Assembly (NCBI GenBank): GCA_022843925.1
Contig: JALHMS010000034.1
Coordinates: forward strand, 1 to 43,822
DNA length: 43,822 bases
Source: Burkholderiales bacterium
GTDB lineage: Bacteria > Pseudomonadota > Gammaproteobacteria > Burkholderiales > Ga0077523
Direction: 5' to 3'
The translations under genes were made by a program, and so were the position numbers. A model generated the notes under the pieces. The model did not search any database. It was not told the origin of the DNA and saw only the letters and a program-made list of their open reading frames with translations. Positions within the stretch are counted from its first letter, which is position 1. The number at the start of each line of letters is the position of its first letter. Positions 2,650 to 40,212 of the stretch are shown piece after piece.

Positions 2650-2754
2650 GCTGACAGTCGTCAGCGGCATGCCCTGGCAGTCCCGGTCTTCAAGACTGCA
2701 ACGCGGTTTGCCGCGTTGACCGATCCAGTCCGCTTCGCATCGCCCACCGCGGAC
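2650..2754 (+). ncRNA. Structured repeat copy 1 (candidate cis RNA)
   Basis: First of four related copies. Stem A is GCTGAC/GTCAGC (2650-2655 with 2660-2665). A conserved GGCATGCCCTG linker follows. Stem B is GCAGTC/GACTGC (2677-2682 with 2694-2699) around an 11-base loop ending TCTTCAA. Stem C is CGCGG/CCGCG, extendable to CAACGCGG/CCGCGTTG (2699-2706 with 2711-2718). Stem D is GTCCGC/GCGGAC (2728-2733 with 2749-2754). The ATG of the next gene lies about 98 bases downstream. Between copies, stems B and D change by paired substitutions, which argues for a folded RNA and against a protein-binding site alone. Confidence 0.65.
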
Positions 2755-2851
2755 GCTCGCCGGCCTGGCGACGATGCACTTTTCTCAACCACCCGAGGGG
2801 AACCCCATCCCCTGCGGGATGCGTGCTCCCCGACCCACCAAGGAGCACGGC

Positions 2852-3088
2852 ATGTCTGAACCTTCCGCATCTTCCTCTGCAACCGCAGTGCGCAGTGGTG
2901 CGCTGGCGCTGAGCTGGACCGGCAAGCGTTTGCCGCTACAGGTGCTGCGCAGCGCGGCCGGCCACTACATCGGCACACAAGACGACGAAGGCCCGGTATC
3001 GCGGGAGTCCGTCGAGTATTTCCCGAACCACCTCGCAGCACAGCGCGCCCTGGATACCCATGCCTGGACACAGCGCGCTCACCCCTGA
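2852..3088 (+). CDS. Small conserved ICE protein, unknown function
   Basis: A 78-residue protein with a low-complexity Ser/Ala-rich start and then a more ordered segment (LALSWTGKRLPLQVLRSAAG). No signal peptide, membrane segment or known motif is visible. The start is fixed by AAGGAG at 2840-2845, six bases before ATG; an in-frame ATG at 2774 lies in the leader and lacks such a site. It follows repeat copy 1 and is 25 bp upstream of another unknown gene, so the two are probably cotranscribed. It is real by ribosome binding site, spacing and codon use, but no function is recognised. Confidence 0.75.
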   Translation: MSEPSASSSATAVRSGALALSWTGKRLPLQVLRSAAGHYIGTQDDEGPVSRESVEYFPNHLAAQRALDTHAWTQRAHP

Positions 3089-3113
3089 TTCCCACCCTTC
3101 AAGGAGTTCTCTC

Positions 3114-3506
3114 ATGAATCTGTCTTTACCCGAAGACGTGCTCGATCAGATGGCGCTGGAACAGGCGCACTTCGACGCTGCACCGCAGGCCTTCTTCGAG
3201 GCCTGGAAGCGCGGCGCGCAGATCGCCGGCCACGAGTGGTTCGGCGACGGCACACGCGAAGGTCTGCAGCGTGCCACCACCAAGTGGGACCTGCGGCCCA
3301 ACATGCTGATGCTCAACGACGCCCTGGGTGTGCTGAGCAGCGGTCAACGCATGTTCCTGTCCGCGATGGTGAGCTTCTACAACTCCCGCGAGGGCGGCGC
3401 GATGCTCAAGCGTTGCGGCTTCGAGGGGCTGTCCGACTTCGGCGGCCTCGATCTGGAACGGCGCCAGGTCATCGCTGACCTCACGCTGCACTACAACGGC
3501 TGGTGA
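3114..3506 (+). CDS. Conserved ICE protein, unknown function
   Basis: A 130-residue soluble, acidic protein starting MNLSLPEDVLDQMALEQ, with no transmembrane segment. It is rich in helix-forming residues and has aromatic patches such as HEWFGDG and SFYNSREGG. The start is set by AAGGAG at 3101-3106, seven bases before ATG. It sits between two other unknown genes of the maintenance module and is followed by a strong hairpin with a T-rich tail. No domain was recognised; the family appears to belong to ICE backbones, judged only from context. Confidence 0.78.
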   Translation: MNLSLPEDVLDQMALEQAHFDAAPQAFFEAWKRGAQIAGHEWFGDGTREGLQRATTKWDLRPNMLMLNDALGVLSSGQRMFLSAMVSFYNSREGGAMLKRCGFEGLSDFGGLDLERRQVIADLTLHYNGW

Positions 3507-3546
3507 GCCGCGCCTGGCAACCCACCGTCTTTTCATCCCACCCCAC

Positions 3547-3590
3547 GAGGGACATGCGTCCCCGTTCGGGGCCATGTCCCTCCTTCTTTT
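3547..3590 (+). terminator. Hairpin with T tract, terminator or attenuator
   Basis: GAGGGACATG pairs perfectly with CATGTCCCTC (3547-3556 with 3573-3582) around an inner CCCCG/CGGGG stem, followed by CTTCTTTT. It lies between the unknown gene ending at 3506 and a short open frame with its own ribosome binding site, so it may be a terminator or a leader attenuator. Confidence 0.65.
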
Positions 3591-3603
3591 CGCAGGAGCG
3601 GCT

Positions 3604-3630
3604 ATGTCCCGAATCAGCATCTTCCACTGA
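3604..3630 (+). other. Eight-codon open frame with good RBS
   Basis: ATG at 3604 reads MSRISIFH and then stops. AGGAG at 3594-3598 is well spaced. It sits between a terminator-like hairpin and the next long gene, so it could be a leader peptide, or the start codon and first residues of a gene whose rest was deleted. There is no homology evidence; it is reported because the ribosome binding site is as good as those of the real neighbours. Confidence 0.3.
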
Positions 3631-3756
3631 CCTGCACCGCCCGCCACCAGGGCGGTCCGACGCCGCGGCCGGCTGACCGGCTGCCACTTCATCCACCCGC
3701 TGGGGTTCAATCCCCGGCAGGGGATTGCCTCGGCCATCCTCTGCTGGAGGAATCCC

Positions 3757-4473
3757 ATGTCCCATTCCAACAACCCCTTCGTCCGCGGCTACGATGGCCT
3801 GTCCGTGCAACGGCTGCTGGCGATTTCCTACGACGACGACTGCCCGCTGAGCTATCTGCCGCTGCACGTCTCGCAGTCGCACCTGTCGGACAGCCAGGTC
3901 GAGCGCCATGCCTGCGTCTTCTGCGACGACTTCGCGCTGATCACCGAGGGCCAGAACGTGCCGCCCGAGCTGGACGCGCAGTGCCCCAGCCACGGCATCG
4001 CCCGAAACCTCGTCTACGCCGTCATGGCCGAAGAAGCCGGCCAGCCGCTGCACGTCGGCGATACCTACTCCGAGGAAGCCGCGCGCGAGGTGGTGCGGCG
4101 CCTGCGCTTCGAGACCGGCTTCTACAGCCGTGCCTGGGAAATCAGTTCGGCGCACATCACCGAGGAGGCCGGCCGCTTCCTCGCCGAACTGGCGGACATC
4201 GCCACGCCGAGCGGCTTTCTGTTCGTCGCCTTCCGCATTCCCTACAGCCCGGCGGTCGGCGTGAAGCTGATCGCCACCCCCTGGACGGATGCGAACCTGC
4301 AGCATGTCGAGGGCATCGCTGCCGAAGAGCTGCGGCAGGAGCACCGGGCCAAGGGCATGCCGGAGTCCCTCGTGGAAGTGTTGCACCTAGCTGCGCTGGC
4401 CGACGTTCGCATGTTGGTGTTCGATGCCGACGCGCCCGTGCTGGACGGACTGACGCTCTACGACGACGAGTAA
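3757..4473 (+). CDS. Conserved ICE protein, unknown function
   Basis: A 238-residue acidic, soluble protein. It opens MSHSNNPFVRGYDGLSVQRL and carries a CVFCDDFALI segment and a later CPSH, so three cysteines and a histidine in residues 50-90 could bind a metal, although the spacing fits no family I know. The middle contains an EEAAREVVRRLRFETGFYSRAW helix-rich stretch. The start is supported by TGGAGG upstream. An intrinsic terminator follows at 4483-4508. It belongs to the maintenance module between topB and the helicase; no function is recognised. Confidence 0.78.
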   Translation: MSHSNNPFVRGYDGLSVQRLLAISYDDDCPLSYLPLHVSQSHLSDSQVERHACVFCDDFALITEGQNVPPELDAQCPSHGIARNLVYAVMAEEAGQPLHVGDTYSEEAAREVVRRLRFETGFYSRAWEISSAHITEEAGRFLAELADIATPSGFLFVAFRIPYSPAVGVKLIATPWTDANLQHVEGIAAEELRQEHRAKGMPESLVEVLHLAALADVRMLVFDADAPVLDGLTLYDDE

Positions 4474-4482
4474 CCCCCTCTT

Positions 4483-4508
4483 GAGCCCCGTGCGGGGCTC
4501 TTCTTTTT
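4483..4508 (+). terminator. Intrinsic terminator
   Basis: GAGCCCCG/CGGGGCTC (4483-4490 with 4493-4500) is followed directly by TTCTTTTT. It lies 10 bases after the stop codon of the upstream gene and fits a Rho-independent terminator well. Confidence 0.8.
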
Positions 4509-4585
4509 CGCGGAACGCGGTGCCGGCGCATTGCCGATTCCCAACGGATGGTCGCCGCCATGTGCCGCACGCTGGCCGCATGTTC

Positions 4586-4651
4586 GCTGGCGTTGCCGGC
4601 AGCATGCCCAGGCAGTCGAGACCTTCAAGACTGCGGCGCGGTTCGCCGTGC
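4586..4651 (+). ncRNA. Structured repeat copy 2 (candidate cis RNA)
   Basis: Stem A is GCTGGC, loop GTT, GCCGGC (4586-4591 with 4595-4600, one G-T pair). The conserved AGCATGCCCAG linker follows. Stem B is GCAGTC/GACTGC (4612-4617 with 4629-4634) around an 11-base loop ending CTTCAA. Stem C is GCGCGG, loop TTCG, CCGTGC (4636-4641 with 4646-4651). Stem D is not evident in this copy. The next start codon is about 106 bases downstream. Confidence 0.6.
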
Positions 4652-4756
4652 TGGTTGCTTCGTTCTCCGGGCGCACCCGCGTCCATCCACCTCACCCTCA
4701 AGGGACAGACCTCCCTTGCGGGCGGGAGTCCCTTGGTTGCCACAAGGAGTCTCCCC

Positions 4757-5554
4757 ATGGATACCCAAGCCATCCGCGCACAGATGCCGACGCTCGTTGT
4801 CGGTCATGTGCCTTCCAACGTCCGTTCGTTCAAATTCAACATCTTCGACGGCCAGCCCAAGGTTTCGACGCTGGGCTTTCACATCGACCCGAAGCCTTTC
4901 GAGGGCAAGGTCATCGCCACCACCGACGAGGCCATCGTCGTCAAGACGGGACGAGCCGAGTTCGCGGTGCTCGATCGCACGCTCGTGACCGAAGTGCCCG
5001 ACGAGGGCGCCAAGGTGCAGGTCGAACCCTATGTCAGACGCCGCTTCGACGGTCAGCGGGCGGACACGCCCGAGGAGCAGACCGAGTTCACCGCCGACGG
5101 CCAGCCCTACACGGTGAAGCGGTTCGTGCTCGGGTCCGCACCGGCGAAGCTGCCGATCCCCGAGCCGCGCTGCCCCGAGCTGCAGGAACTGGTCGACCAA
5201 CTGGAGCAGTTGCCCGCTCCCGACGGTTTCCGGCGCGTCACCCACATGCTGGTGGATGCCGGCGCGCGGGACATCACCTGGGTCGATCCGCTGCCCGCCG
5301 ACATCATCCGCACGCCGCCGGCCATCGGCTTCACCGTCGCCACGACGAAGTTCCAGGGTCGCGTCACCGTGCTGTATGAGCGTGGCCTCGACCTCTACGC
5401 GGTGGAGCTGCACCGCGACGGCGAGCTGGTCGAACGGGTCGATGAGGTGTTCTTCGACACCCTCGGCGAGACGCTGGAACGGCTGATCGACGACGGGAGT
5501 TGGCGGCGCATCCGCGTGCAGTGCCTGTCGTGTCGTAAGGCTATCCGGCACTGA
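4757..5554 (+). CDS. Conserved ICE protein, unknown function
   Basis: A 265-residue soluble protein without signal peptide or membrane segments. It opens MDTQAIRAQMPTLVVGHVPS and shows alternating beta-type segments in the first 110 residues (GKVIATTDEAIVVKTGRAEFAVLD), then a mixed C-terminal half ending in a CLSC pair. The start is fixed by AAGGAG at 4744-4749, seven bases before ATG; the in-frame upstream codons run through the terminator and repeat copy 2 and are not coding. A strong hairpin follows the stop codon. No domain is recognised. Confidence 0.78.
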   Translation: MDTQAIRAQMPTLVVGHVPSNVRSFKFNIFDGQPKVSTLGFHIDPKPFEGKVIATTDEAIVVKTGRAEFAVLDRTLVTEVPDEGAKVQVEPYVRRRFDGQRADTPEEQTEFTADGQPYTVKRFVLGSAPAKLPIPEPRCPELQELVDQLEQLPAPDGFRRVTHMLVDAGARDITWVDPLPADIIRTPPAIGFTVATTKFQGRVTVLYERGLDLYAVELHRDGELVERVDEVFFDTLGETLERLIDDGSWRRIRVQCLSCRKAIRH

Positions 5555-5563
5555 TCTCACAGC

Positions 5564-5598
5564 AGCTTCCCGCCCTCGCGGCGGGAAGCCTCTTTTCC
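5564..5598 (+). terminator. Terminator-like hairpin just before a gene
   Basis: GCTTCCCGCC, loop CTCGC, GGCGGGAAGC (5564-5589) is a perfect 10-bp stem followed by CTCTTTTCC. It lies between the stop at 5554 and the start at 5620, with TGGAG and the ATG directly after the T tract. Confidence 0.75.
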
Positions 5599-5619
5599 TG
5601 CCCCCTGGAGATCACACCC

Positions 5620-5985
5620 ATGACTGTTCGATTCAAAGGCACGGAGCTGCGGCCCGTGCTCGCCGAAGCGGTGGCGAATCAATGCCGCGTCATCCTGGTC
5701 AAGGATCAGGGCGTGTACTTCCTGGCCGAGTGCGGCGAGCGCCGACCCGATGGTCGCCAGAAGACCATCGCCTATGCCGCTGGCTGCAACCCGGATGTCG
5801 ATGCCTTCGATGACTGGTGGGAGCTGGCGCGCGCCGAGTTCGGTGGCGACGACTTCGGCGAGTTCTTCGATCCGCAGGAGGGCGTGTTTGCGCGCATCCT
5901 GCGCAGCGAGGACGACCTCGACGTGTCCGCCTCCGCGACACACCTATCGCTGCAGGCGGTTCCTCCCACGCCCAGCGGTAACTGA
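5620..5985 (+). CDS. Probable DUF3085-type ICE protein
   Basis: A 121-residue acidic protein. The pattern LRPVLAEA at the start, then VKDQGVYFLAECGE and AYAAGCNPDVDAFDDWW, resembles the DUF3085 family as I remember it (LRP near the start, then a 'DQGVYL' strand); this match is by eye and not certain. No membrane segment or catalytic motif is visible. The start has CTGGAG 11 bases upstream. It is flanked on both sides by terminator-like hairpins, so it may be expressed as a single gene or by read-through. Confidence 0.72.
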   Translation: MTVRFKGTELRPVLAEAVANQCRVILVKDQGVYFLAECGERRPDGRQKTIAYAAGCNPDVDAFDDWWELARAEFGGDDFGEFFDPQEGVFARILRSEDDLDVSASATHLSLQAVPPTPSGN

Positions 5986-5997
5986 CCGCCCATCCCT

Positions 5998-6025
5998 GGC
6001 CCCCGCTCCGGGGGCCTCTTTCTTC
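5998..6025 (+). terminator. Intrinsic terminator
   Basis: GGCCCCC, loop GCTCC, GGGGGCC (5998-6004 with 6010-6016) is followed by TCTTTCTTCC. It lies 13 bases after the upstream stop codon and is consistent with Rho-independent termination. Confidence 0.75.
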
Positions 6026-6104
6026 CCGGCAATGCGGACAGCCGCGAGTGCCGATTGCCGCTCGCCTGCGCGCCGTCCTGGCGCCACGCTTCCGGCCATG
6101 TTCC

Positions 6105-6210
6105 GCTGACGTCCGTCAGCGACATGCCCAGGCAGCCACGATCTTCAAGGCTGCGACGCGGTTCCGACCGCGTTGATCACTCCAGTTCGCACCGGCATCC
6201 ATGCGCGAAC
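6105..6210 (+). ncRNA. Structured repeat copy 3 (candidate cis RNA)
   Basis: Stem A is GCTGAC/GTCAGC (6105-6110 with 6115-6120). The conserved GACATGCCCAG linker follows. Stem B is GCAGCC/GGCTGC (6132-6137 with 6149-6154), loop ending TCTTCAA. Stem C is ACGCGGT, loop TCCG, ACCGCGT (6156-6173). Stem D is GTTCGC/GCGAAC (6185-6190 with 6205-6210). It lies 120 bases before the DUF3577 gene. I recall Rfam motifs named after DUF3577 and DUF3085 for candidate leader RNAs in such elements; whether this is one of them was not checked. Confidence 0.65.
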
Positions 6211-6329
6211 GGCCATCGGTTCTCGATGGCGATGCCTCCAAGCTGTTCCATCAACCCACGCGGGGGTTCCACACCTTCCCCGCCTTGGGTCGGGTGTGTC
6301 TCCGCCTCATTGTTCCCAGGAGATTCACC

Positions 6330-6881
6330 ATGACCACTTCCACCGAAAAGTCCTACTTCGATCTGCACATCACCGGCCTCGGGTATCTCAATCGCATCCG
6401 CGAAGTGAAGCCCAAGAAGGGCGATGCGTTCCTGGCCTGCGACATCGCGGCTCTGAACGGTCCCAGCGACGACGTCTCGTATGTGCGTTTCGACACGCGC
6501 GTATCGGGTTCGGAAGCGCAGCACCTGGTGCGCCGCTGCATTCAGGCGGTCGACGCCGAGAAGAAGGTGATGATCGGCTTCCGCTTGGGCGACCTGTGGA
6601 CCGACACCTTCACCTACTCCAAGGGGAAGCGTGCCGGCGAGCAGGGTGTGAGCCTCAAGGCCCGTCTGCTGTTCGTCAGTTGGATCAAGGTCGACGGCAA
6701 GCTCGTCTACAAGGCCGAACCCAAGCCGACCGAGACCGACGAGCGCGACCCGGAAGTCCCCGTGACGTCCGACGCGCCCGCCGCGCAGCAAGCCTCGGCA
6801 CCGGAGCCTTCCAGGCCCGTCGCCGATGCTGCCGACGACGCTGCCGATGCCCCCGCATTGGCCGTTGCCGAGTCGTTCTGA
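6330..6881 (+). CDS. STY4534/DUF3577 family ICE protein
   Basis: A 183-residue protein whose N-terminal 125 residues match the STY4534 (DUF3577) family of ICEs, annotated as an ICE replication protein: YFDLHITGLGYLNRIREV, then KGDAFLACDIAALNG. This beta-rich part looks like an OB-fold single-strand DNA-binding type domain, which is my inference. The last 55 residues form an Ala/Pro/Glu-rich acidic tail (AADDAADAPA), as in SSB proteins. The start has CAGGAG eight bases upstream. The long leader holds repeat copy 3. It is followed by a hairpin and then DUF3275, its usual neighbour. Confidence 0.88.
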   Translation: MTTSTEKSYFDLHITGLGYLNRIREVKPKKGDAFLACDIAALNGPSDDVSYVRFDTRVSGSEAQHLVRRCIQAVDAEKKVMIGFRLGDLWTDTFTYSKGKRAGEQGVSLKARLLFVSWIKVDGKLVYKAEPKPTETDERDPEVPVTSDAPAAQQASAPEPSRPVADAADDAADAPALAVAESF

Positions 6882-6886
6882 TCCGC

Positions 6887-6919
6887 AAGGCCCCATCCCC
6901 GGGGCCTTGTCTTCTCTTC
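6887..6919 (+). terminator. Hairpin with pyrimidine tail
   Basis: AAGGCCCC/GGGGCCTT (6887-6894 with 6901-6908) is followed by GTCTTCTCTTC. It falls between the DUF3577 and DUF3275 genes; the tail is pyrimidine-rich but not a clean T run, so termination may be partial. Confidence 0.5.
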
Positions 6920-6936
6920 GTCCGCAGGAGACCTTC

Positions 6937-7548
6937 ATGATCACCATTCCCGGCCAACTGGCCATCAAGACCATCCACGGCAGGAACGGCGACTTCAACG
7001 TCGGCCGCCTGGCGACCTCGATCGGCGAGTTCGTCGTGAAGAACGCCGAACTCGATCAGTACCGCGAGGGCAAGTACGACGGTGATTTCGTCATCGTCGA
7101 GATTCGCCCCTCCACGTACAACGCCAACGGCCGCATGGTCATCGAGATCCGCGCCCATCTGGGCGGGATGACCCTGTCCAACATCGACGCCCTGAGCCGC
7201 GACGAAGCCCGCCGGCTGAGTCCGCAGGAAGTCGATCCAATCGACGAGGAAGCGCAGGCGCCCGCGCCGGCAACGCCCCCGGCCAAGCCGAAGGCGAAGC
7301 CGCGCAGTCCGCGCGATCCCCTGGTCGATACCACGCCGTTCGGCAGCGAACCGGCTCCCGTGTCCGCTGCGGCCTCGGCCGAGGCAGACGACGCGGCGCT
7401 GTTCGGTGCCTTGTGGCCCCTGGGCGAGACCGTAAAGCTCGATGCGACCGTGGATCGTCGTGTGCTGCGTCAGCAGCGCGACCGTCTCGACAAGCTGGGC
7501 TACGAGTTCGCTCCGCTGTCCCAGGACTGGCACCTCCAAGCTGCCTGA
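6937..7548 (+). CDS. DUF3275 family ICE protein
   Basis: A 203-residue protein of unknown function, well recognised as DUF3275 from its start MITIPGQLAIKTIHGRNGDF and the EFVVKNAELDQYREGKYDG and IRPSTYNANGRMVIEIRA segments. The N-terminal 90 residues form the conserved domain. A Pro/Ala/Lys-rich linker (residues about 105-125) leads to a C-terminal segment of about 55 residues (ADDAALFGALWPLGETVKLDATVDR). The start is set by AGGAG eight bases upstream. It is the usual companion of DUF3577 in these elements, probably acting with DNA maintenance proteins; its biochemical role is unknown. Confidence 0.88.
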   Translation: MITIPGQLAIKTIHGRNGDFNVGRLATSIGEFVVKNAELDQYREGKYDGDFVIVEIRPSTYNANGRMVIEIRAHLGGMTLSNIDALSRDEARRLSPQEVDPIDEEAQAPAPATPPAKPKAKPRSPRDPLVDTTPFGSEPAPVSAAASAEADDAALFGALWPLGETVKLDATVDRRVLRQQRDRLDKLGYEFAPLSQDWHLQAA

Positions 7549-7582
7549 TCCATCCGCCGCCTTGCGCGGCATTCCGCCACCC

Positions 7583-7622
7583 GCCGGGGTTCTCCCCCGA
7601 CGGGGAGGGCTCCGGCCTTTTC
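7583..7622 (+). terminator. Terminator-like hairpin before a gene
   Basis: Outer GCCGG/CCGGC (7583-7587 with 7612-7616) encloses CTCCCC/GGGGAG, and CTTTTC follows. AAGGAG and the ATG of the next gene come immediately after. Confidence 0.6.
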
Positions 7623-7637
7623 TTCAAGGAGACCCTC

Positions 7638-8003
7638 ATGGGCTGGACCTTCGTTCGTCAGACGCGCGATCAGTTGATCCGCGAGCTGCTCGCTCCGCAG
7701 GCGTCCGAACGCGCTTGCTGCGAAGTCATCGACCACACGCTGGACGGCGACGTTCTGTGGACCGTGGTTCGCGTCACCGCCAGGCAGGCGGGCGTCATGG
7801 GCCTCGCGGCCGGTGAGTCCGTCTGCTACATCGGCTGCAATCTGCTGGAAAGCTCGGGCGGCGATTGGGGCTACAAGTCCCTCGATGAGTCCGTGCATCC
7901 GTACTACTACTCGTGCCCGCTGCGCTATCTCGACATGGCGCCGGTGCAAAGCTCCGAGTGGCGCGAGCGGGTTCACCGCTTTCACGCGGGACGCGCTGTC
8001 TAG
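7638..8003 (+). CDS. Conserved ICE protein, probable DUF6927
   Basis: A 121-residue soluble protein starting MGWTFVRQTRDQLIRELL, a start I associate with the DUF6927 family; this assignment is from memory. It contains a cysteine pair (ERACCEVID), a beta-rich middle with LDGDVLWTVVRVTA and a YYYSCPLRYLDMAP segment. No known catalytic motif is seen. The start is supported by AAGGAG six bases upstream. It follows DUF3275 after a hairpin leader and precedes another unknown gene with the same kind of leader. Confidence 0.78.
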   Translation: MGWTFVRQTRDQLIRELLAPQASERACCEVIDHTLDGDVLWTVVRVTARQAGVMGLAAGESVCYIGCNLLESSGGDWGYKSLDESVHPYYYSCPLRYLDMAPVQSSEWRERVHRFHAGRAV

Positions 8004-8034
8004 CGGCACGCATCTTCCTTCACCCAACCGGGGC

Positions 8035-8073: not shown

Positions 8074-8087
8074 AAGAGGACATCACC

Positions 8088-12801: not shown

Positions 12802-12892
12802 TATTCGGGCGGGCGCCAGTGCGTTTTGTTTGCTGCCCGCAGGCCAAGCGGCGGCGATGGTGAGCGCTCCGTGTTCCAGGGAAGCGCCCTCC

Positions 12893-21674: not shown

Positions 21675-21687
21675 TTCTTGTTCCTCC

Positions 21688-21783
21688 GTCGCGCTCCAGG
21701 ATGATGGCAAAGCGCCGCTCGGTGTCCGAATCGAACTTCTCGGCGGGGCGCTTCAAGAACTTGTGACCGCCAATCTTGGGCGC
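21688..21783 (-). pseudogene. Remnant of a type III restriction (Res) C-terminus
   Basis: Between the AIPR stop and the ATPase start, 32 codons read APKIGGHKFLKRPAEKF then DSDTERRFAIILERD. The second part strongly resembles the C-terminal FDSDTERxxAVILERD stretch of type III restriction helicase-nucleases as I remember it. It lies directly behind the AIPR stop in the same frame. It is either a relic of a deleted res gene or an AIPR extension cut off by a nonsense codon. Confidence 0.45.
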
Positions 21784-24821: not shown

Positions 24822-27474
24822 CGTAGTCATCCTCCTCGTCAGGATCGTCGGCGTAACCCTGCATCTGCTGGAGCCAGACCTTGTTCACGACGACATTGAT
24901 GGTCGTCGAATAGTCCCCGTAGGGAAAACTGACGCCGAAGGCGGCGATCGGTCCCGTCACGGCCTCGCCCTTGGGCTCCAGGCTGTGAATCATGAGGAGC
25001 GGCTTGTTCCGAACCATGCGGTAATGTGTGTCGGATACCGCTCCTGAGCCATCTTCGCCGCCTGCCAGCGTCCTGGCCTCATTGCGTTGTGCGTCGCTGA
25101 GCCCAAGCTTCTCGTCGCCACGCGAGGCAACCCTGTCCTTGTTCAGGCGCCACGAAGTGCCGTTCGGCTGATCCTTCCCGACGACGCGCACCTGATTCCT
25201 CAGGGTGAACGGGTTTTCACCGCCTGAGCCACCCGAAGGGGAAATCAGCAGAACATCGGCCAGCGGGCGCTTCGTCGCAATCCGTTCGAGATAGCTCACC
25301 ACGTCCGACTTCTGTCCAGAAAAGGTCGAGTGGCATTCGAACCGGGTGAGGAAGTCGTCGATTACCTCGACGGGCACGTCCCTGAAGATGACGCCCTTTT
25401 CGGTGGACTCCTCCGGTCGCCCGCCGAATCCACTTCGCCAGTGATCGCCGATCAGCGCAAGGTTCCTAGCATTCACGTCAGGGTCGGTGGAGACAATGTA
25501 GCTCTCCCGCAATCGCCCACTGAAACTCTGCTCGACCGTGACCTCCTGGCCGGATCGCATCTTGTTCGCCGCCGTGATCAGCAGGCTGTCCGGATGCGAG
25601 CGGACGTACAGGCCAAAATCCTTCGGGCTAAGGCGATCGCGCCGCATGCGCTTGACCTGCTGTACAAGCTCTTCGGCGGCATCGGCGATGTGGGAGTACC
25701 AGTTGATCGAATCGCGTGAGAGATGGACGCGGCAGAGGTCCTCGAAGCCCGGCCGGTAGCCGAACCAGCGGCCCATCTGCATGAGGGTGTCGTACATCTT
25801 CGTGTTGCGGTACATGTAGCTGACGGTCAACCCCTCGATGGTCAGGCCTCGGGAGAGGCTCAGACCACCGACCGCGACCGCGGTCAACCCGACTCCTTCC
25901 TTCGCGTAGCGGGCGTAGTCGAGCACCTCGTCACTCTTGCTGTTGATGACATAGAGGTGGAGGTGCTCGAAGACGCCGCTGAGGGCAGCCTTCACCTCCG
26001 CCCAAGTAAACCCAGCATCGGCATACTCAGCATCGAAGGCGTGCTTCAGGCCCTGCATGTACGCGTTTCTTGCGGAAACCTCTTCCGGCATCGCGTAGTT
26101 GGCGAGAACCGCTTCCCTGATCTTCTTCTCCCTGAGACTCAGGAAGTCACGCACGGCCTTCTGAACGGGCACGAAGCGCGACACATTGACCATCATTGAG
26201 CAATGCTTGCCGGTCTGCCCACGCAGGTTCCGGATGGCGCGGGCGACGATGAATTCGTCGAGTGCGCGATAGAGGCTGGGGGGCAACTCGGGGACAGGAT
26301 CGTCACGCTTGTGGGCGTACGGGATGAGATTCTCGCAATCGTCGATCGGCCTCACGATCGATTGACTGGTCGCCTCGTCGAGGAACACCTTCTCGGCACC
26401 GAAGTACGTCGTTGGCGCGTCCAGGCAATAGATGAAGTCGCGCGGGAACAGCTCCTCACGCACATCATCGCCATAGGCGTCGGGGTTGATGAAGATGTTG
26501 GCGAACGGTGTCGCCGTGTAGCCGACATAGCACGATTTCGCGAACAGCCCGAGGATGCGCCGGATCATCGCATTCGTTCGGGTCGGATCCAGATCCTCCT
26601 TGTTCGTGTTGATCGACGCGTTGTCGGCCTCGTCGTCAATCAGCAGCATCGGCACGTCGGAAATCCGGCCATCGCCCTCGGCGTTCAGCTCCTTCAGCCA
26701 CTTGTGAAGAGCCGTGAGCGTCGTGACGTTCTTCTTGATGACCAGAATGATCGGCTTGCTGAAGTCGTTGATCTTCCAGCCGCTCTTTTCCGCCGTGTTC
26801 TTGTTGAAGTCCTCGTTGATGTTGGTGAGGGTAGCCGGATGCGGATAGCCCGGCGCGAGGCCGACACCGATGTTGCGACGATCCTCGGGATCGCTGGACC
26901 GGCCGATGAAGGCCTCATCGATGCGCTGCTGCGTCTGCTTACGCAGATTGTTGTGAATGCCGGCGACAACGATGATGAACTTGTAGCCGGCGTCGGCGGC
27001 GCGTGCTATCAGGCCGGTGTAGTTGGCCGTCTTGCCCGACTGCACATGACCGATGACAAGGCCGCGACGGTTCCAGGTTGTGCCCTCGCTTAACGGATCC
27101 TGCAGGTGGCCGAGAATGCGGGTCGTCACATCGCTCAGCGACTGGACCATCTGCGGTGGCCAACTTTCCTTGAGAAGAAAGTTTCCATAGGATTCCGCAT
27201 ACGTCCAGGCGACATCCTCACGCTTGTGGACCCACTGATCGTCATGCTTCGCAGTGACATCCACCAGCGAAACACCGGCCCCCATGCGCGTGTCGACCGA
27301 GATCATCGCCTCGGTGACGATATTACGGAGATCACCCGTATAGCCGAAGATCGCGGCGATCTGTCTCGCCTTCTCCTCCACCTGCTCGCGCGTCGGCGTC
27401 TCGGCCATGTTGGCAAGGCCTGAGATGAGCGCGTTGGCAATGTTCCGTTCTTCCGTGATGACTGTGAGGCTCAT
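24814..27474 (-). CDS. Z1 domain helicase-like ATPase
   Basis: An 886-residue superfamily 2-type ATPase with the Z1 domain. Walker A is GHVQSGKTANYTG (residues 142-149 for the core) and Walker B is LLIDDEADNASINT near residue 278. The Z1 region includes FIVARAIRNLRGQTGKHCSMMVNVSRF and the GGLSLSRGLTIEGLTVSYMYR motif, with QMGRWFGYRPGFEDLCRVHL as the arginine-finger motif. Z1 proteins accompany MutL/MORC-like ATPases in restriction-type defence. It starts four bases inside the end of the GHKL ATPase gene (ATGA). Confidence 0.95.
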   Translation of the reverse strand: MSLTVITEERNIANALISGLANMAETPTREQVEEKARQIAAIFGYTGDLRNIVTEAMISVDTRMGAGVSLVDVTAKHDDQWVHKREDVAWTYAESYGNFLLKESWPPQMVQSLSDVTTRILGHLQDPLSEGTTWNRRGLVIGHVQSGKTANYTGLIARAADAGYKFIIVVAGIHNNLRKQTQQRIDEAFIGRSSDPEDRRNIGVGLAPGYPHPATLTNINEDFNKNTAEKSGWKINDFSKPIILVIKKNVTTLTALHKWLKELNAEGDGRISDVPMLLIDDEADNASINTNKEDLDPTRTNAMIRRILGLFAKSCYVGYTATPFANIFINPDAYGDDVREELFPRDFIYCLDAPTTYFGAEKVFLDEATSQSIVRPIDDCENLIPYAHKRDDPVPELPPSLYRALDEFIVARAIRNLRGQTGKHCSMMVNVSRFVPVQKAVRDFLSLREKKIREAVLANYAMPEEVSARNAYMQGLKHAFDAEYADAGFTWAEVKAALSGVFEHLHLYVINSKSDEVLDYARYAKEGVGLTAVAVGGLSLSRGLTIEGLTVSYMYRNTKMYDTLMQMGRWFGYRPGFEDLCRVHLSRDSINWYSHIADAAEELVQQVKRMRRDRLSPKDFGLYVRSHPDSLLITAANKMRSGQEVTVEQSFSGRLRESYIVSTDPDVNARNLALIGDHWRSGFGGRPEESTEKGVIFRDVPVEVIDDFLTRFECHSTFSGQKSDVVSYLERIATKRPLADVLLISPSGGSGGENPFTLRNQVRVVGKDQPNGTSWRLNKDRVASRGDEKLGLSDAQRNEARTLAGGEDGSGAVSDTHYRMVRNKPLLMIHSLEPKGEAVTGPIAAFGVSFPYGDYSTTINVVVNKVWLQQMQGYADDPDEEDDYDA

Positions 27475-28949
27475 GCAAAGGTCTCGCTGATGAATTTTTC
27501 GGCCAGTTCGATCTGGCCATCGAAAAGGTGCGTCGAGCGCACGATCTGGAGAAAGGCATTCGGATCGCCCGGCCCGTCGCCGTAGAGCACCTTCCTGAGA
27601 CTCTTCAGGCGCTCCAGAGTCTGGCTTTCATCCACCGCCCTCTGGTTGATCTCGCGCGGATGGGTCGAGTAATCCGAATAGATCATCTCCACCGGTAGGG
27701 AGGCGGCAATCGAATCCAGCAGGACACGAAGCAGATCCACATCCTCGGACGAAAGTCTTGTGCCCAGGGATGCGATGAGCGGGTGCTGCTCGTTGATTGC
27801 GAAACGGATGCCGCCGTGATCGGCGTAGCGCTCCCAGAACGGGGCTTGGCTCTCCTGAAAGAGCTTCTGCCCACGCCCCCTATGCACCGTTACGCTGCGG
27901 GCAGTGATCCTGTTGATGATCTGACGCAGCCGCTCCCGCACCCCATGCGGCGGGCGGGCACGGGATTTCTTGATGTCGATGGTCCAGGCTTCGTCCAGGC
28001 TGTTGGGAAAGTCGATCTGTACCCGCGCCAACTTGGTGGCCTCGCCCTTCGGCACGAGTCTGAACCAGTCGCCCCAGGCCATCAGGCGGCCGTTTCGATA
28101 GACGTAGCCCCCCTGATTGGAGATGAAGTCACTGCGATCCTGGTAGTAGTCGTACTCGGACGCGGACAGACGACTGTGGTGTGGAAGCACGTAAGGCTGC
28201 AGGCGCACCTCGGCCTCGCCGATGCGGACGATCTCCTCCGGAAGCACCTGGGTGGCAGGATTCTTCCTGCAGAAGGGATCGAATGCCGTAATCGGACGAC
28301 CATTGACGGTGAGAGAAATCCTGGCATGTCCCTTGATCTCACCCGAGAGAAACCGGTGGAAGACAAGTGACAGATGTCTGCCTACTGCCTCAAGCTTCTC
28401 ATTGACGATCTCGTCTCGACGATCCCCGGCCTCGTCCTCCATCAATCGGTCGAGCTCTCGCCAGATAACGGCCGTGCCCCGGGCGCCGAGCCGTTCGACA
28501 TAAGGCAGCCCATGGATGTCCGCATCGTCCAGGATGGAAAGAATCCAGTCGTCGGCAGCATCGATGCGATCCAGATTCCATTCGGCTCCGCAGACAGTTC
28601 CATCGCGTGTGCTCACAACGGTCAGCGAGCGACATTGGGAAAACGAGGCTGTCTTCAGGCCAAGGCCGAAGCGCCCAAGATCCTTCGGCGACCGATGCTG
28701 CCTGGGGTTGCCGGTCCCATGACGCATCGCATCGAGCAGCTCGTCTTCCGTCATCCCCCTGCCGTTGTCGAGGATGACCATCACAGGATGCTCACCGGAC
28801 ACATCGCAAATGATGTCGATGGTGTCCGCGCCAGCGGAAATGCTGTTGTCGATCAGATCGGCAATCGCAGTTTCGAGCGAGTACCCAAGGTCCCGCATCG
28901 ATTCGGAAAGGCAGGCCGCGCTCGGCGGATGACTGCGATCACGAGCCAT
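27471..28949 (-). CDS. GHKL (MORC/MutL-like) ATPase
   Basis: A 492-residue ATPase of the Hsp90/MutL/MORC class. The N-box is ETAIADLIDNSI (residues 26-37), the G1 box DNGRGM (61-66) and the G2 box GRFGLGLKTASF (92-103). The middle S5-like domain and the C-terminal region have no other known motif. Such proteins dimerise on ATP binding and are thought to clamp DNA and activate partner nucleases. ATG 28949 has AAGAGGAAG upstream and heads the operon GHKL-Z1-DUF4420-AIPR-RloC-like. The divergent 135-bp gap to vsr must contain its promoter. Confidence 0.93.
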   Translation of the reverse strand: MARDRSHPPSAACLSESMRDLGYSLETAIADLIDNSISAGADTIDIICDVSGEHPVMVILDNGRGMTEDELLDAMRHGTGNPRQHRSPKDLGRFGLGLKTASFSQCRSLTVVSTRDGTVCGAEWNLDRIDAADDWILSILDDADIHGLPYVERLGARGTAVIWRELDRLMEDEAGDRRDEIVNEKLEAVGRHLSLVFHRFLSGEIKGHARISLTVNGRPITAFDPFCRKNPATQVLPEEIVRIGEAEVRLQPYVLPHHSRLSASEYDYYQDRSDFISNQGGYVYRNGRLMAWGDWFRLVPKGEATKLARVQIDFPNSLDEAWTIDIKKSRARPPHGVRERLRQIINRITARSVTVHRGRGQKLFQESQAPFWERYADHGGIRFAINEQHPLIASLGTRLSSEDVDLLRVLLDSIAASLPVEMIYSDYSTHPREINQRAVDESQTLERLKSLRKVLYGDGPGDPNAFLQIVRSTHLFDGQIELAEKFISETFA

Positions 28950-29084
28950 CGGCTTCCTCTTGCGTCTTCTCGTGAGTCACGTGCATGGTAAGCTCCGAAT
29001 TGCTGCTTCGGGTGTCGTCTTCATCCGTTCGCATTGCCAAGCGGAAGCGCGGAGCTGCCATTTCTGCAGACATTCAGGCGGAAG

Positions 29085-29543
29085 ATGCTCAAGACCATGC
29101 GCGTTCCTACCACTCCGCAGCGCAGCCGCATGATGTCGAGCATTCGCGGAAAGAACACCCGGCCGGAACGGATACTTCGCTCCCTCCTTTTCGCCAGGGG
29201 TTTTCGATATCGACTTCATGTGCGGGGGCTGCCCGGCTCCCCCGACCTTGTGTTCCCGAAGCGCAAAGCAGTGGTGTTCGTCCATGGCTGCTTCTGGCAC
29301 CGACATGAAGGCTGCCGCTACACAACCACTCCCAGGACCAATGAAGATTTCTGGCGGCAGAAATTCCAGGGAAATGTCGCTCGCGACAGGCGCCATGCGG
29401 AGATGCTCCATGCTCTCGGCTGGCGCGTGGCGGTCGTCTGGGAGTGCGCCTTGAAGCACTCGGTCGAGGAGACTACGCAAGCGGTTGAGGAGTGGCTGCA
29501 TGGCGATGAGGATGTCCTGGTGATTGGTCAGAGCATTGGCTAG
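29085..29543 (+). CDS. vsr: Very short patch repair endonuclease
   Basis: A 152-residue nuclease that nicks beside T:G mismatches arising from deamination of 5-methylcytosine, protecting against mutation by a cytosine methylase. Family motifs are clear: PQRSRMMSSIRGKNTRPE, GSPDLVFPKRK with the catalytic aspartate (Asp54), FVHGCFWHRHEGC and VAVVWECALKH. It is the only + strand gene of the island and converges on the methylase gene. ATG 29085 gives the expected short lead; ATG 29034 would add 17 unlikely residues, and ATG 29097 is possible. Confidence 0.95.
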   Translation: MLKTMRVPTTPQRSRMMSSIRGKNTRPERILRSLLFARGFRYRLHVRGLPGSPDLVFPKRKAVVFVHGCFWHRHEGCRYTTTPRTNEDFWRQKFQGNVARDRRHAEMLHALGWRVAVVWECALKHSVEETTQAVEEWLHGDEDVLVIGQSIG

Positions 29544-31159
29544 CCCGCTTCGGCAAGCACCGGAAGCTGTTCTGGCAGGTTTCGCGGCACGCTTCCCGCC
29601 GGCCTCTTCTGTACGGCATCACCAGCCTGCCTCCGCCTCCTCCTGCTCATCTCGTTCAGAAGGCTACGAACGATCCTGGCCAGCTTGTGAGCAAGCAACG
29701 GAGGCACCGCATTGCCTACCTGGGTGTACTGCTCAGTGCGGTTGCCCGCGAAGACGTAGTTGTCGGGAAACGTCTGAAGCCGTGCTGCTTCCCTGACCGT
29801 GAGACTTCTGCATTGGGAGGGGTCGTAGTGGATGTAGTAGTGCCCGTCCTTGGCAATGTGAGCCACCACCGTGGTGGACGGTTCGTTCCTGCACTGCACG
29901 CGGAACCGATCCTTGAACGGGATCGTTTCGGATTCCCGATCGACATGCACATTGATGTGATCGGGAAGCAGCTTGGGAGGGAACACATCCAGCCGTGGGC
30001 AATATCCCCATAAATGAGCGAAGCTGGCCGAGAAAAGATAGCGAGCAAGATCGGATGCCATGTGCGCGCGCGCTTCATGCTGACAGACACCACCCAGGCT
30101 TCGGTCGTGAAGCCATTGCTGAAGCTCGGTCGGCTTCTTCGGCCTTCTGTAGCCTCGTGAAATGAAGGCGCCACCGGTCGTGGTGCTGGTTGCCGCAGCG
30201 GCAAAGGCACGCATTGTCCCGATCATGACGGACTCGTTTTCTGTCCTCCATCCCTTGACGTAAGAGGGGCCAGCCTGAACAGCCTTGCGCCATGCCTCCA
30301 CTGAATCGCCACGCGACAGCTTGCTGCGGATTCGGGGAAGATCGTCAATGGCCTGTTTGACCGTGACAGGCCTCGCTACTGGTGCCAGCAACTGGTGTTG
30401 AGGCATGTCCAGCCCCTTTCTCACTCCGAGCAGAATCACGCGATGCCTGCTTTGCGGGATCCCATGGCGCTCAGAATGGATAAGGTAGTCGGTGGGTTCC
30501 AGCGAACTGCCGTCGCCCTTCTTGGTGAAGGATCGGATCTCATATTCGAGCCCCTCGGTCGGCATCGAAAGATCCGCAATGATCTTCTCGAACATTGGGT
30601 CGCCGGAGTGCTTCGAGGAAAGCAGACCCTTGACATTTTCCATCACGAAGATGGTGGGCTTGTGCACTTGGATGATTCTCAGGTATTCCCTGTAGAGGAA
30701 GTGCTTTTCATCCTTGTGAAAGTCCTTGTCGTTGGCGCGTCTGGAGCGCCCCGCCAGCGAATACGCCTGGCAGGGCGGGCCGCCGATCAGCACCCAGGTT
30801 TCCTGCCCCTTCAGTGCAGCGCGAATTTCCCTATCAATACTGGCTTCGTCGGACTTGCCAAGCTCTAGGCACCTCGCTTCGGTGGCAGCATGCTCGAAGG
30901 CGCTGGCCACGGCAGGGATCCTGCGGAAAGCGGCCTCATCGATCTCGCCTCGTATGTAGCTGTAGTAGTGCTTGACGTCCTTGGTGCCACGCAAACGCCT
31001 GAACACTGCCCTGAGCGTCAGCGTGCGATGTGCGACAGCATCCTTTTCAATGGAAAGGGCGATCTCGAAGAATGGCTGCCGTTTGTGGCCCTGCAGGGAA
31101 GCAAATCCTTCCCCGAGCCCTCCTGGGCCAGCAAAAAGATCAATTATGGGAACTGGCAC
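29540..31159 (-). CDS. C5-cytosine DNA methyltransferase
   Basis: A 539-residue DNA (cytosine-5) methyltransferase. Motif I is DLFAGPGGLGEGF (residues 7-19), the catalytic Cys130 lies in GGPPCQAYSL, motif VI is ENVKG near 174 and motif VIII QSRHRV follows. A long variable region precedes the C-terminal motifs (REAARLQTFPDNY and QVGNAVPPLLA). The target sequence cannot be read. The start is GTG 31159 with AAGGGGAGG nine bases upstream; the open frame further upstream overlaps the HTH gene in another frame and is not coding. It pairs with vsr and presumably marks self DNA for the restriction-like operon. Confidence 0.93.
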   Translation of the reverse strand: MPVPIIDLFAGPGGLGEGFASLQGHKRQPFFEIALSIEKDAVAHRTLTLRAVFRRLRGTKDVKHYYSYIRGEIDEAAFRRIPAVASAFEHAATEARCLELGKSDEASIDREIRAALKGQETWVLIGGPPCQAYSLAGRSRRANDKDFHKDEKHFLYREYLRIIQVHKPTIFVMENVKGLLSSKHSGDPMFEKIIADLSMPTEGLEYEIRSFTKKGDGSSLEPTDYLIHSERHGIPQSRHRVILLGVRKGLDMPQHQLLAPVARPVTVKQAIDDLPRIRSKLSRGDSVEAWRKAVQAGPSYVKGWRTENESVMIGTMRAFAAAATSTTTGGAFISRGYRRPKKPTELQQWLHDRSLGGVCQHEARAHMASDLARYLFSASFAHLWGYCPRLDVFPPKLLPDHINVHVDRESETIPFKDRFRVQCRNEPSTTVVAHIAKDGHYYIHYDPSQCRSLTVREAARLQTFPDNYVFAGNRTEQYTQVGNAVPPLLAHKLARIVRSLLNEMSRRRRRQAGDAVQKRPAGSVPRNLPEQLPVLAEAG

Positions 31160-31220
31160 GCCAGCAATCCTCCCCTTGGTTCTTTCCCGAATGTGATTCG
31201 GTTGCTGATTTGGTGCACGC

Positions 31221-31421
31221 TCACTCTGCCTCCGGCTTCTTCTTGCTGATGCTTTCGGCGATCCACCGATCCAGCTCCGAGCGGCGAAAGCGCCAGGTTC
31301 CCCCAAGCTTGAACGCCGGAATCTCGCCTTTCTGGGCAAGGCGATAGACCGTCCGTTTCCCGGCTTTGAGGTAGGCCGCGACCTCCTCAAGCGTGAGGAT
31401 CTCGCTCTCGACTTCAGTCAT
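31221..31421 (-). CDS. Small excisionase/AlpA-type HTH protein
   Basis: A 66-residue winged-helix DNA-binding protein of the excisionase (helix_turn_helix_17) type: LTLEEVAAYLKAGKRTVYRLAQ, then GEIPAFKLGGTWRFRRSELDRWI. It lies 61 bp upstream of the methylase gene on the same strand, the position of a controller protein in restriction-modification loci, although classical C proteins are Xre-type. It could instead be a remnant of an integrase/Xis module. The ATG at 31421 gives the whole domain; the upstream ribosome binding site is weak. Confidence 0.85.
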   Translation of the reverse strand: MTEVESEILTLEEVAAYLKAGKRTVYRLAQKGEIPAFKLGGTWRFRRSELDRWIAESISKKKPEAE

Positions 31422-31480: not shown

Positions 31481-31563
31481 CCAAGCTGCGGTAGGTGCTG
31501 GCCAACTCCACAATCCCGGGAGCATTGGACGGTTGATCGCCAGCTCGCCCCGGAAATCCGGTC

Positions 31564-31586
31564 ATGCCGTAGTTCCCATTCCCTGC
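31564..31586 (+). repeat. Right near-direct repeat flanking the defence island
   Basis: A 23-nt segment beginning ATGCCGTAGTTCCCA that matches 18985-19007 at 18 of 23 positions. It lies 60 bases before the RAQPRD gene, so with its partner it brackets the whole lower-GC cargo block. Confidence 0.4.
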
Positions 31587-39378: not shown

Positions 39379-39391
39379 CGGGAGCAACACG

Positions 39392-40135
39392 ATGCGCCTG
39401 CCTTCATTCGCCCGCCGTCATCCCTGGATCGGTCTGCTGATCGTGGCGACGATTGCAGTGGCCTCGTGGATGCTGCTGCGCGCGCCGCATCCGGCAACCG
39501 AGCCCATGTCCCCGGCCGCCGCCGGTTTCGAAGCGTCGAAACCGGCTGGCCCGCCCTGGCTGTATGGCCGTGCCGATGCGCGCTTCACGGTGGTCGGGTA
39601 CGCCGACCTGGAGTGTCCGTACTGCCGGGCCTACTTCCCCGAACTCAAGCGCTGGATCGACGCCCATCCCGAGGTGAACTGGCAGTGGCACCACCTGCCG
39701 CTGTCCATGCACGAGCCGGCTGCGACTGCCGGGGCACGCCTGGCCGAGTGCGCGGGCGAGACGGGCGGGCATGCCACGTTCTGGCAAGCCGTGGCGTGGC
39801 TCTACGCGAACACCCGTGGCGACGGCCAGGGCCTGCCGGAAGGCCTGCGCTATCCCGACCTCACGCCAGCCATGCAGGGTTGTCTCGACAGCGATCGCCC
39901 CGATGCCGTCATCCGTGCCCAGGCGGCGGAAGCGGCACAGCAGGGCATCGCGGCCACGCCGGCCCTGCAACTGCGCGACCGCGAGTCCGGCAAGACCCTC
40001 CTGCTGCACGGCCCCGTCGAAGGCGATGCCTTGCTGTCGGCCATCGACCTGCTCGCCGCCGGCAACACGACCGCAGCCGAACCTGCCCATTCCCCAGACA
40101 TGCCCGCCGGCGTTGCCGGTGACATGCCCAGGTAG
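39392..40135 (+). CDS. DsbA-like thioredoxin of the transfer operon
   Basis: A 247-residue membrane-anchored or exported thiol oxidoreductase. One N-terminal hydrophobic segment (IGLLIVATIAVASWMLL) is followed by a thioredoxin fold. The active site is CPYC (Cys75, Cys78) in VVGYADLECPYCRAYFPELK, and the cis-proline loop is IAATPALQL. It probably forms disulphides in pilus or core proteins. The start is supported by GGGAG upstream. The last residues, GVAGDMPR, are encoded inside structured repeat copy 4, which suggests that the repeat replaced the original C-terminus. Confidence 0.92.
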   Translation: MRLPSFARRHPWIGLLIVATIAVASWMLLRAPHPATEPMSPAAAGFEASKPAGPPWLYGRADARFTVVGYADLECPYCRAYFPELKRWIDAHPEVNWQWHHLPLSMHEPAATAGARLAECAGETGGHATFWQAVAWLYANTRGDGQGLPEGLRYPDLTPAMQGCLDSDRPDAVIRAQAAEAAQQGIAATPALQLRDRESGKTLLLHGPVEGDALLSAIDLLAAGNTTAAEPAHSPDMPAGVAGDMPR

Positions 40136-40212
40136 CCATCGATCTTCAAGGCTGCGGCGCGGCTCGTCCGCGTTGATCGAAACCCGTTCGCATCGCATCC
40201 CTTGACGCGAAC
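40106..40212 (+). ncRNA. Structured repeat copy 4 (candidate cis RNA)
   Basis: Stem A is GCCGGC, loop GTT, GCCGGT (40106-40111 with 40115-40120, one G-T pair). The GACATGCCCAG linker is conserved. Stem B is GTAGCC/GGCTGC (40132-40137 with 40150-40155, one wobble), loop ending TCTTCAA. Stem C is CGCGG/CCGCG (40158-40162 with 40168-40172). Stem D is GTTCGC/GCGAAC (40186-40191 with 40207-40212). It lies 119 bases before radC and overlaps the end of the DsbA-like gene. Confidence 0.65.

Follow-up and report, generated by a model that had tools for sequence, protein, structure and literature searches.

radC RNAs as putative 5' leaders of operons in an ICE of the ICEclc kind: predicted fold, promoters and a possible role in translation

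The element and its four radC RNA copies

The window (the whole stretch of DNA analysed, 43,822 bp) is one entire contig and contains an ICE of the ICEclc kind. Its ICE genes encode topoisomerase III, DUF5983, DUF3085, DUF3577/STY4534 and DUF3275 proteins, a DUF6094 methylase, a helicase, a TraD-like protein, T4SS proteins and RadC. A defence cargo lies between the TraD/DUF4400 genes and the T4SS genes (19047-31390, minus strand); it has PADLOC matches to MzaB, MzaC, MzaD, MzaE and PDC-S06, and the top PADLOC match of its C5 cytosine methylase is DrmMII. Directly past RadC, an MFS transporter and a metallo-beta-lactamase-fold protein are encoded on the opposite strand (40970-43678, minus).

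An earlier note, made from the sequence alone, had described a four-copy repeat on the plus strand (2650-2754, 4586-4651, 6105-6210 and 40106-40212). The repeat was found in the sequence as described, and cmscan against Rfam 15 assigned all four copies to the radC RNA family, RF01754, with 100 to 138 bits against a gathering score of 40 (best E value, 1.1e-26) (Table 1). The note had also suggested Rfam motifs named DUF3577 and DUF3085; neither matched. No other Rfam family reached its gathering score in the whole window, and none was found within positions 1-8000 at E values up to 1. The cmscan alignments placed RF01754 stems A, B and C in all four copies and the 3' hairpin (stem E) in copies 1, 3 and 4; copy 2, a variant, lacks stems D and E and aligns poorly in its 3' part. 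Start codons follow about 85 to 115 bases past the ends of the RF01754 matches (32 for copy 2). Measured from the ends of the repeats first described, the distances are 98, 106, 120 and 119 bases, in agreement with the 100 to 120 bases given in the note. No fifth copy was found among the 150 of 772 first-look candidates that were scored in the same genome. The four repeats are radC RNAs and, judged from their sequences, very probably serve as 5' leader RNAs of about 150 nt in ICE operons.

Two of the proteins encoded behind the copies were modelled. The 265-aa protein gave a model with a pLDDT of 83.6, yet no PDB structure matched it at an E value of ≤0.001. The model of the STY4534 protein had a pLDDT of 53.6, and its best PDB matches were mostly SSB/OB folds, at E values of 2e-3 and worse; on the basis of this low-confidence model, the STY4534/DUF3577 protein may be SSB-like. 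PDB sequence searches with both proteins returned zero matches.

Table 1. Features of the four radC RNA leaders and neighbouring sequences (window positions)
Feature	Positions	Strand	Basis or remark
27-bp promoter motif, copy 1	2577-2603	+	PWM score 21.3, trained on 40 other copies
-10-like box CATCCT, copy 1	2631-2636	+	Ends 5 bases before RNA model start (2641); position common across copies
radC RNA copy 1 (stems A-E, PK1, PK2)	2632-2777	+	cmscan, 120.8 bits
PK1, copy 1	2684-2688 with 2718-2722	+	
Stem D, copy 1 (GTCCGC/GCGGAC)	2728-2733 with 2749-2754	+	Read from sequence; covariation
PK2, copy 1	2737-2742 with 2772-2777	+	
Hairpin GTGCTCC/GGAGCAC over SD site, copy 1	2823-2848	+	
78-aa protein, first gene after copy 1	2852-3088	+	No match in Pfam, NCBIfam or PHROG; alignment A7, n = 27
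27-bp promoter motif, copy 2	4515-4541	+	PWM score 20.9
radC RNA copy 2 (variant without stems D and E)	4569-4725	+	cmscan, 100.2 bits; variant alignment
PK1, copy 2 (GACC/GGTT)	4620-4623 with 4653-4656	+	
Tandem hairpins, copy 2: CAAGGGA/TCCCTTG	4699-4705 with 4712-4718	+	Folds (4699-4749)
Tandem hairpins, copy 2: CCCTTGG/CAAGGAG (SD)	4730-4736 with 4743-4749	+	Folds (4699-4749)
265-aa protein, first gene after copy 2	4757-5554	+	No match in Pfam, NCBIfam, PHROG or PADLOC
27-bp promoter motif, copy 3	6032-6058	+	PWM score 23.8
radC RNA copy 3	6087-6235	+	cmscan, 131.7 bits
PK1, copy 3 (GATC/GATC)	6140-6143 with 6175-6178	+	
Stem D, copy 3	6185-6190 with 6205-6210	+	
PK2, copy 3 (GGCATC/GATGCC)	6194-6199 with 6231-6236	+	
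TCTCCGC/GGAGA around SD site, copy 3	6299-6323	+	Weakly occluded in STY4534 family
DUF3577/STY4534 family ICE replication protein, first gene after copy 3	6330-6881	+	PF12101, 206 bits; NF040584, 202.8 bits
27-bp promoter motif without radC RNA	31556-31582	+	PWM score 20.6; 64 bases before T4SS RAQPRD gene (31646); counterpart of ICEclc P67231
radC RNA copy 4	40089-40239	+	cmscan, 138.2 bits; overlaps end of DsbA-like ORF before RadC
PK1, copy 4 (CGATC/GATCG)	40140-40144 with 40175-40179	+	
Stem D, copy 4	40186-40191 with 40207-40212	+	
PK2, copy 4 (GCATCC/GGATGC)	40195-40200 with 40234-40239	+	
Tandem hairpins, copy 4: GGAGGG/CCCTCC	40274-40279 with 40284-40289	+	Sequence; fold of same leader type (40274-40324)
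Tandem hairpins, copy 4: GCCCTCC/GGAGG (SD)	40300-40306 with 40320-40324	+	Sequence; fold of same leader type (40274-40324)
RadC-like JAB domain protein after copy 4	40331-40825	+	PF04002, 146.9 bits

Distribution and predicted fold of the family

radC RNA is rare. It was present in 2 of 274 genomes of a class sample and in none of 14 control genomes, and a phage search with one RNA copy gave no match. A DNA pattern found at least 118 loci in genome contigs, and nhmmer over the gathered loci gave 236 matches, of which 67 with less than 85% mutual identity were kept (59 of the 236 were dropped as identical or with incomplete flanks, and 110 of the remaining 177 by identity). The first gene behind 225 of the 236 matches encoded RadC (61 cases), the 265-aa protein (49), STY4534 (47), the 78-aa protein (36), a 218-aa protein (14) or a member of one of several small groups. 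The RNA is also plasmid borne, with three copies on pKLC102; since Rfam recognises all 17 matches of the plasmid set, none of them is new to the family.

When Pseudomonas loci were fetched by the STY4534 protein alone, the RNA lay upstream in 30 of 30 (one per genome, the best 30 of 53 genomes with the protein), on the same strand and ending 102 to 421 bases before the protein match. The protein-anchored loci held 40 distinct RNAs, 38 of them new to the sample. In a class-wide sample the RNA lay upstream of STY4534 in 2 of 15 genomes and was missing in 13. Outside Pseudomonas, no divergent radC RNA was detected before STY4534 in 11 loci searched with filters off (best score, 14.2 bits); loci L228-L230 and L232 were searched with the default filters only. 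Across all scanned places the RNA preceded STY4534 in 66 of 75, a figure biased by how the loci were fetched, the nine misses being loci added after the RNA table.

The fold was assessed in two alignments: A2, a class-I alignment of 53 copies with stem D, from which one mis-classed row (L095:2965-3111) was removed, and A4, a covariance-model alignment of 150 of 162 matches (116 distinct), the fit of which did not include PK1. In A2, the 29 pairs of stems B, C, D and E and PK1 were paired in 94.2% of 1,515 cells, compared with 85.2% after shuffling and 24 to 54% after sliding. Changes on both sides were seen in 21 of the 29 pairs, and none of 500 shuffles, which ignore phylogeny, matched any measure. 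The DNA search pattern fixes letters of stem B and the CTTCAAG loop, so that B pairing in the loci found with it is partly chosen; it contains no letters of C, D, E, PK1 or PK2.

Stem D was paired in 99.7% of A2 (GUUCGC/GCGAAC, GUCCGC/GCGGAC, GAUCGC/GCGAUC and other variants), and both D and E were found unaided by RNAalifold. The earlier note had read stems A to C in all four window copies and D in three, and had pointed to paired changes in D (GTCCGC/GCGGAC in copy 1, GTTCGC/GCGAAC in copies 3 and 4). Each of these observations was borne out, copy 2 being the one without D, and the covariation is genuine in the larger alignment. On this comparative evidence, stem D is a genuine predicted stem and is missing from the structure line of the Rfam model. 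The note had further placed CATGCCC and CTTCAA in single-stranded positions; CTTCAA and the CCC are indeed unpaired, but in the Rfam model CATG makes up the 3' strand of stem A.

Two pseudoknots were recognised. PK1 forms between the B loop and the strand immediately 3' of C (GAUC/GAUC, GGUC/GACC and GACC/GGUU); it was paired in 89.6% of A2, and four of its five pairs carried double changes (28 double-changed cells). A scan of the region in A4 gave two PK1 pairs, AU59/GC43 and UA89/CG17, as the pairs with high mutual information. PK2 forms between the D loop and the strand 3' of stem E (GCAUCC/GGAUGC, GGCAUC/GAUGCC, GCAUCG/CGAUGC, GCUUCC/GGAAGC and GCAUUC/GAAUGC), with at least five Watson-Crick pairs in 53 of 53 rows and at least six in 44. 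Its mean was 5.94 pairs, compared with 5.21 when tails were swapped between rows (maximum of 200 swaps, 5.5). Among the 38 new copies fetched via the STY4534 protein, stem D was present in 37 (the alignment leans to D), PK1 averaged 4.57 versus 3.42 when swapped (maximum, 3.78), and PK2 averaged 5.62 versus 4.34 (maximum, 4.86; 200 swaps each).

The variant class of copy 2 has A, B, C and PK1 (68 of 72 cells) and lacks D, E and PK2. Pairing in the columns of this class was 113 of 126 in L12, 92 of 124 in L13 and 48 of 88 in L34, where the alignment slips. A short hairpin, F, was rejected for this class, with 30 of 85 cells paired.

In well-paired A4 columns, G-U pairs outnumbered A-C by 116 to 27 in 100 class-I rows and by 28 to 2 in 16 copy-2-type rows; an earlier count on A2 gave 37 versus 9. 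Because G-U lies far above A-C, it is the sense strand that folds. The comparative analysis shows a predicted structure in which members of the family fold from the sense strand into stems A to C, plus D and E in the main class, tied by two pseudoknots.

Promoters, transcript starts and Shine-Dalgarno hairpins

In the window, the three copies not linked to RadC share an upstream 27-bp promoter motif in addition to the RNA, which agrees with the common signal for these genes proposed in the earlier note. The PWM scan listed no such motif at copy 4. Further good matches were noted on the plus strand at 12803 (score, 17.4) and 29039 (20.2), the latter inside the defence cargo. Intrinsic-terminator-like hairpins with T runs, identified by eye at 4483-4510 and about 5997-6025, end the genes that precede copies 2 and 3 and lie 60 to 90 bases upstream of the RNA.

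ICEclc was reached through the LB400 element. LB400 coordinates fit 17 of 17 ICEclc ORF names between 50240 and 83350 and 1 of 15 above; 98147, which we take to be an ICEclc ORF name, was among the names compared. The comparison covers ICEclc up to 83,350, with P88400, UR84835 and UR89247 beyond. For P. knackmussii B13, which carries ICEclc itself, a DNA search of 398 Pseudomonas genomes gave at best 89% identity over part of the query and 85% over the whole. Two radC RNAs map base-exactly onto ICEclc: one, at 82807-82662, precedes ORF81655, which is the DUF3577 gene, and the other, at 59156-59009, precedes ORF58432 (RadC).

Of 53 promoter-type copies, 45 have the 27-bp motif in place; in copies of the ICEclc kind it precedes the second CATG by about 90 bases. 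A matrix trained without the window and LB400 copies ranked three radC leaders top in LB400, followed by sites at ICEclc 74364 and 67705; the site at 67705 precedes ORF67231, which has a published bimodal promoter without a radC RNA. The best match in a shuffled 120 kb scored 18.3, compared with 18.7 for these two sites, so their weight comes from their place and not from their score. A direct search for a 27-mer common to P81655, P58432, P67231 and PtraI in LB400 gave nothing convincing, and the motif emerged only with many copies. We infer that the motif in the window is the published ICEclc motif, the width of 27 having been fitted with knowledge of the published width.

Other members of the family have other promoters. 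Twelve of 13 pKLC102-type copies have a TTGAC[AT] box separated by 16, 17 or 18 bases from a -10 box that ends 4 to 5 bases before the RNA; among upstreams chosen by regular expression for TTGAC, the box was in place in 12 of 12, compared with 21 of 6,000 shuffles. Of the 117 distinct upstreams, 37 were of the RadC kind and had no promoter, 12 belonged to the TTGAC kind, and the remaining 68 have CACGCT, CATCCT or GAAGCT-like boxes at the same position. In the protein-anchored set, 25 of 40 promoters scored at least 9 of 12 and ended 4 to 6 bases before the RNA. From these predicted promoters, the RNA begins at the predicted +1 or no more than a few bases from it; the copies before RadC are the exception and are internal to an operon. 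The RNA is kept where promoters differ, and at RadC it is present without one, which is the main reason for assigning the RNA a function. The earlier note had named a DNA-binding site without transcription as the case that would speak against its interpretation. That case is disfavoured, as the RNA is downstream of the likely activator site and is kept on some elements where a TTGACA-type promoter replaces that site. ICEclc RNA-seq data also show transcription upstream of ORF81655, where coverage is described as the highest of all (PMC9286271). Apart from the Rfam names, the interpretation in that note, a covarying RNA structure that leads ICE operons and provides a common regulatory signal, is retained.

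The Shine-Dalgarno (SD) site behind the RNA is frequently predicted to be paired. The median pairing probability was 0.97 in 115 leaders versus 0.72 for 300 genes from the same loci and 0.74 after shuffling of the upstream letters, the start codons having been picked automatically and some of them wrongly. Family means were 0.94, 0.96, 0.86, 0.63 (the 78-aa family) and 0.94, with a control mean of 0.68, and hence the SD site of the 78-aa family (copy 1) is not occluded. In 39 leaders of the protein-anchored set the median was 0.80 versus 0.75 shuffled (p = 3e-6). Median costs of freeing the site ranged from 2.9 to 9.8 kcal/mol, with STY4534 leaders at only 2.9. The computed folds suggest that hairpins cover the SD site in most gene families, with exceptions.

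Many leaders contain four strands: strand 1 resembles an SD sequence, strands 2 and 3 are anti strands, and strand 4 is the actual SD site. Strand 3 pairs upstream better than shuffles do in 61 of 92 leaders and re-pairs upstream in only 37 of 96 SD-free folds; a competing-strand switch is possible. Hairpins with anti-SD letters also occur at 3530-3600 and 3700-3760, before places without a radC RNA, which indicates that the SD hairpin is not exclusive to radC leaders.

Interpretation and comparison with known systems

The reading that we prefer, with a probability of roughly 0.5, is that radC RNA is a structured 5' leader that controls translation in ICE operons. The ICE transfer-competence regulator would turn on three of the window copies via the upstream 27-bp motif, and the knotted domain would then govern how the gene behind it is translated. 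A hairpin would hide the SD site in most gene families, with a strand further upstream as a possible competitor for the anti-SD strand. A trans-acting factor, most likely an element protein, would bind the knot and shift the balance of the hairpin. The STY4534/DUF3577, RadC, 265-aa and 78-aa proteins would by this means gain one further common control after transcription. That translation is the step controlled is an evenly balanced proposition, and that the binding partner is a protein rather than a small molecule is somewhat less likely than not.

Published ICEclc data bear on this reading. The P81655 and P58432 regions were bimodal as reporters, and BisDC raised every construct tested except two, with ORF81655 listed among the late promoters in the conclusion (PMC9286271). 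The authors suspected post-transcriptional control from a comparison of P81655 with Pint (PMC9286271); P81655 carries a radC leader. Deletion of ORF81655-75419 left transfer to an isogenic recipient unchanged (PMC9286271), so these genes may matter elsewhere.

An unlikely alternative is that radC RNA is a 5' stabiliser or processing element, the tight fold of which protects ICE transcript segments or marks cut sites and has no part in translation. The structure does sit at the predicted 5' end, and the RadC copy lies inside a transcript, flanked by separate RNAs on Northern blots (53587-58432 and 59110-62755) (PMC2892462) at a place where RNA-seq shows no step or drop and the cloned P58432 region is a weak promoter (PMC9286271). 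However, this alternative leaves unexplained the SD-covering hairpins and the need for conserved loops, and the processing places suspected by the ICEclc authors (73676, and 84835 and 89247, where LB400 diverges) are not placed at a radC RNA by our map.

A more specific form of translational control is modelled on gp32. STY4534/DUF3577, or an element SSB, would bind radC RNA and repress several operons, and single-stranded DNA from transfer or rolling-circle replication would draw the protein off and allow translation. The co-occurrence of RNA and protein gene in 30 of 30 Pseudomonas loci and the predominance of SSB/OB folds among the weak structure matches suggest such gene-32-like feedback without proving it; we consider it distinctly unlikely.

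Two further alternatives are, in our estimation, improbable. The compact knotted fold, invariant unpaired letters and downstream SD hairpin are what a metabolite riboswitch might offer, with a double-pseudoknot aptamer and the hairpin as its platform. The genes behind the RNA, however, are ICE core genes, DNA related or without assigned function, rather than genes of transport or synthesis, and the 2010 listing marks switch status with a question mark (PMC2864571). Equally improbable is a processive antitermination leader of the put or EAR type, in which RNA polymerase, altered by the RNA, would read through long ICE operons. Several operons are each headed by one copy, and the transcript from ORF81655 is about 14 kb (PMC2892462), but the T4SS operon promoter has the 27-bp motif and no radC RNA, the RadC copy comes late in its cluster, and the SD hairpins are not accounted for.

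It is very improbable that the structure acts as single-stranded DNA during transfer, for example, as a Frpo-type promoter that transcribes the entering strand at once. Such elements drive plasmid leading-region genes (PMC11541004), and some genes behind radC RNA look related to single-stranded DNA; the template strand would need to fold, however, whereas the G-U excess points to the sense strand, and ordinary promoters lie upstream of the fold, not within it. The least probable alternative, that the stems are inverted repeats forming a double-stranded DNA site for the ICE activator BisDC, draws on the repeat, motif and bimodal activity shared by promoters 81655 and 58432 but is countered by the position of the motif upstream of the RNA and its presence at P67231 without RNA, by the retention of the RNA on elements with TTGACA promoters, and by nested and crossing pair covariation with a G-U bias, which is not expected of double-stranded DNA sites.

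Control of translation by a structured leader, the preferred reading, can be set beside several known systems. The family itself, RF01754, dates from 2010 (Weinberg; PMC2864571); it is known, and the window copies are new members. The window copies agree with RF01754 in stems A, B, C and E and in the conserved letters, but the structure line of the model has no stem D and shows a 3-bp GCg/uGC pairing at the place of PK2. Such lines cannot show pseudoknots, and the seed may annotate them. Rivas (2020) lists radC among families whose database structure misses covarying pairs (PMC7657543). No functional study of radC RNA since 2010 was found in the open-access literature, most subscription journals lying outside it; the fold, the start point and the promoter link are additions to what is known, with priority partly checked.

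In the T4 gene 32 operator, too, a 5' pseudoknot precedes the ribosome-binding region, and the gene encodes a single-stranded DNA-binding protein (PMC535899). It is described as a single pseudoknot of about 28 nt with unstructured repeats (PMC535899), in contrast to the double pseudoknot of about 150 nt, the SD hairpin and the several genes of radC RNA. Frpo/ssi elements are also structured elements upstream of early transfer genes (PMC11541004), but radC RNA folds from the sense strand, with its promoter upstream of the fold.

The closest comparison is with ICEclc, where two radC RNAs lie inside the promoter regions P81655 and P58432 and the upstream motif is also found at P67231. The portion of the ICEclc paper that deals with these regions regards them as promoters in the DNA that carry a 27-bp motif, and an RNA is not mentioned there (PMC9286271). 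For radC RNA, an orphan since 2010, the analysis revises the predicted fold, proposes a start point and locates the RNA in an element that has been studied well. If control of translation is true, transfer competence of the ICE would have a post-transcriptional layer above the BisDC switch. Since two copies map base-exactly into ICEclc, for which reporters, deletions and RNA-seq exist in laboratory Pseudomonas, the role of the RNA is directly testable there.
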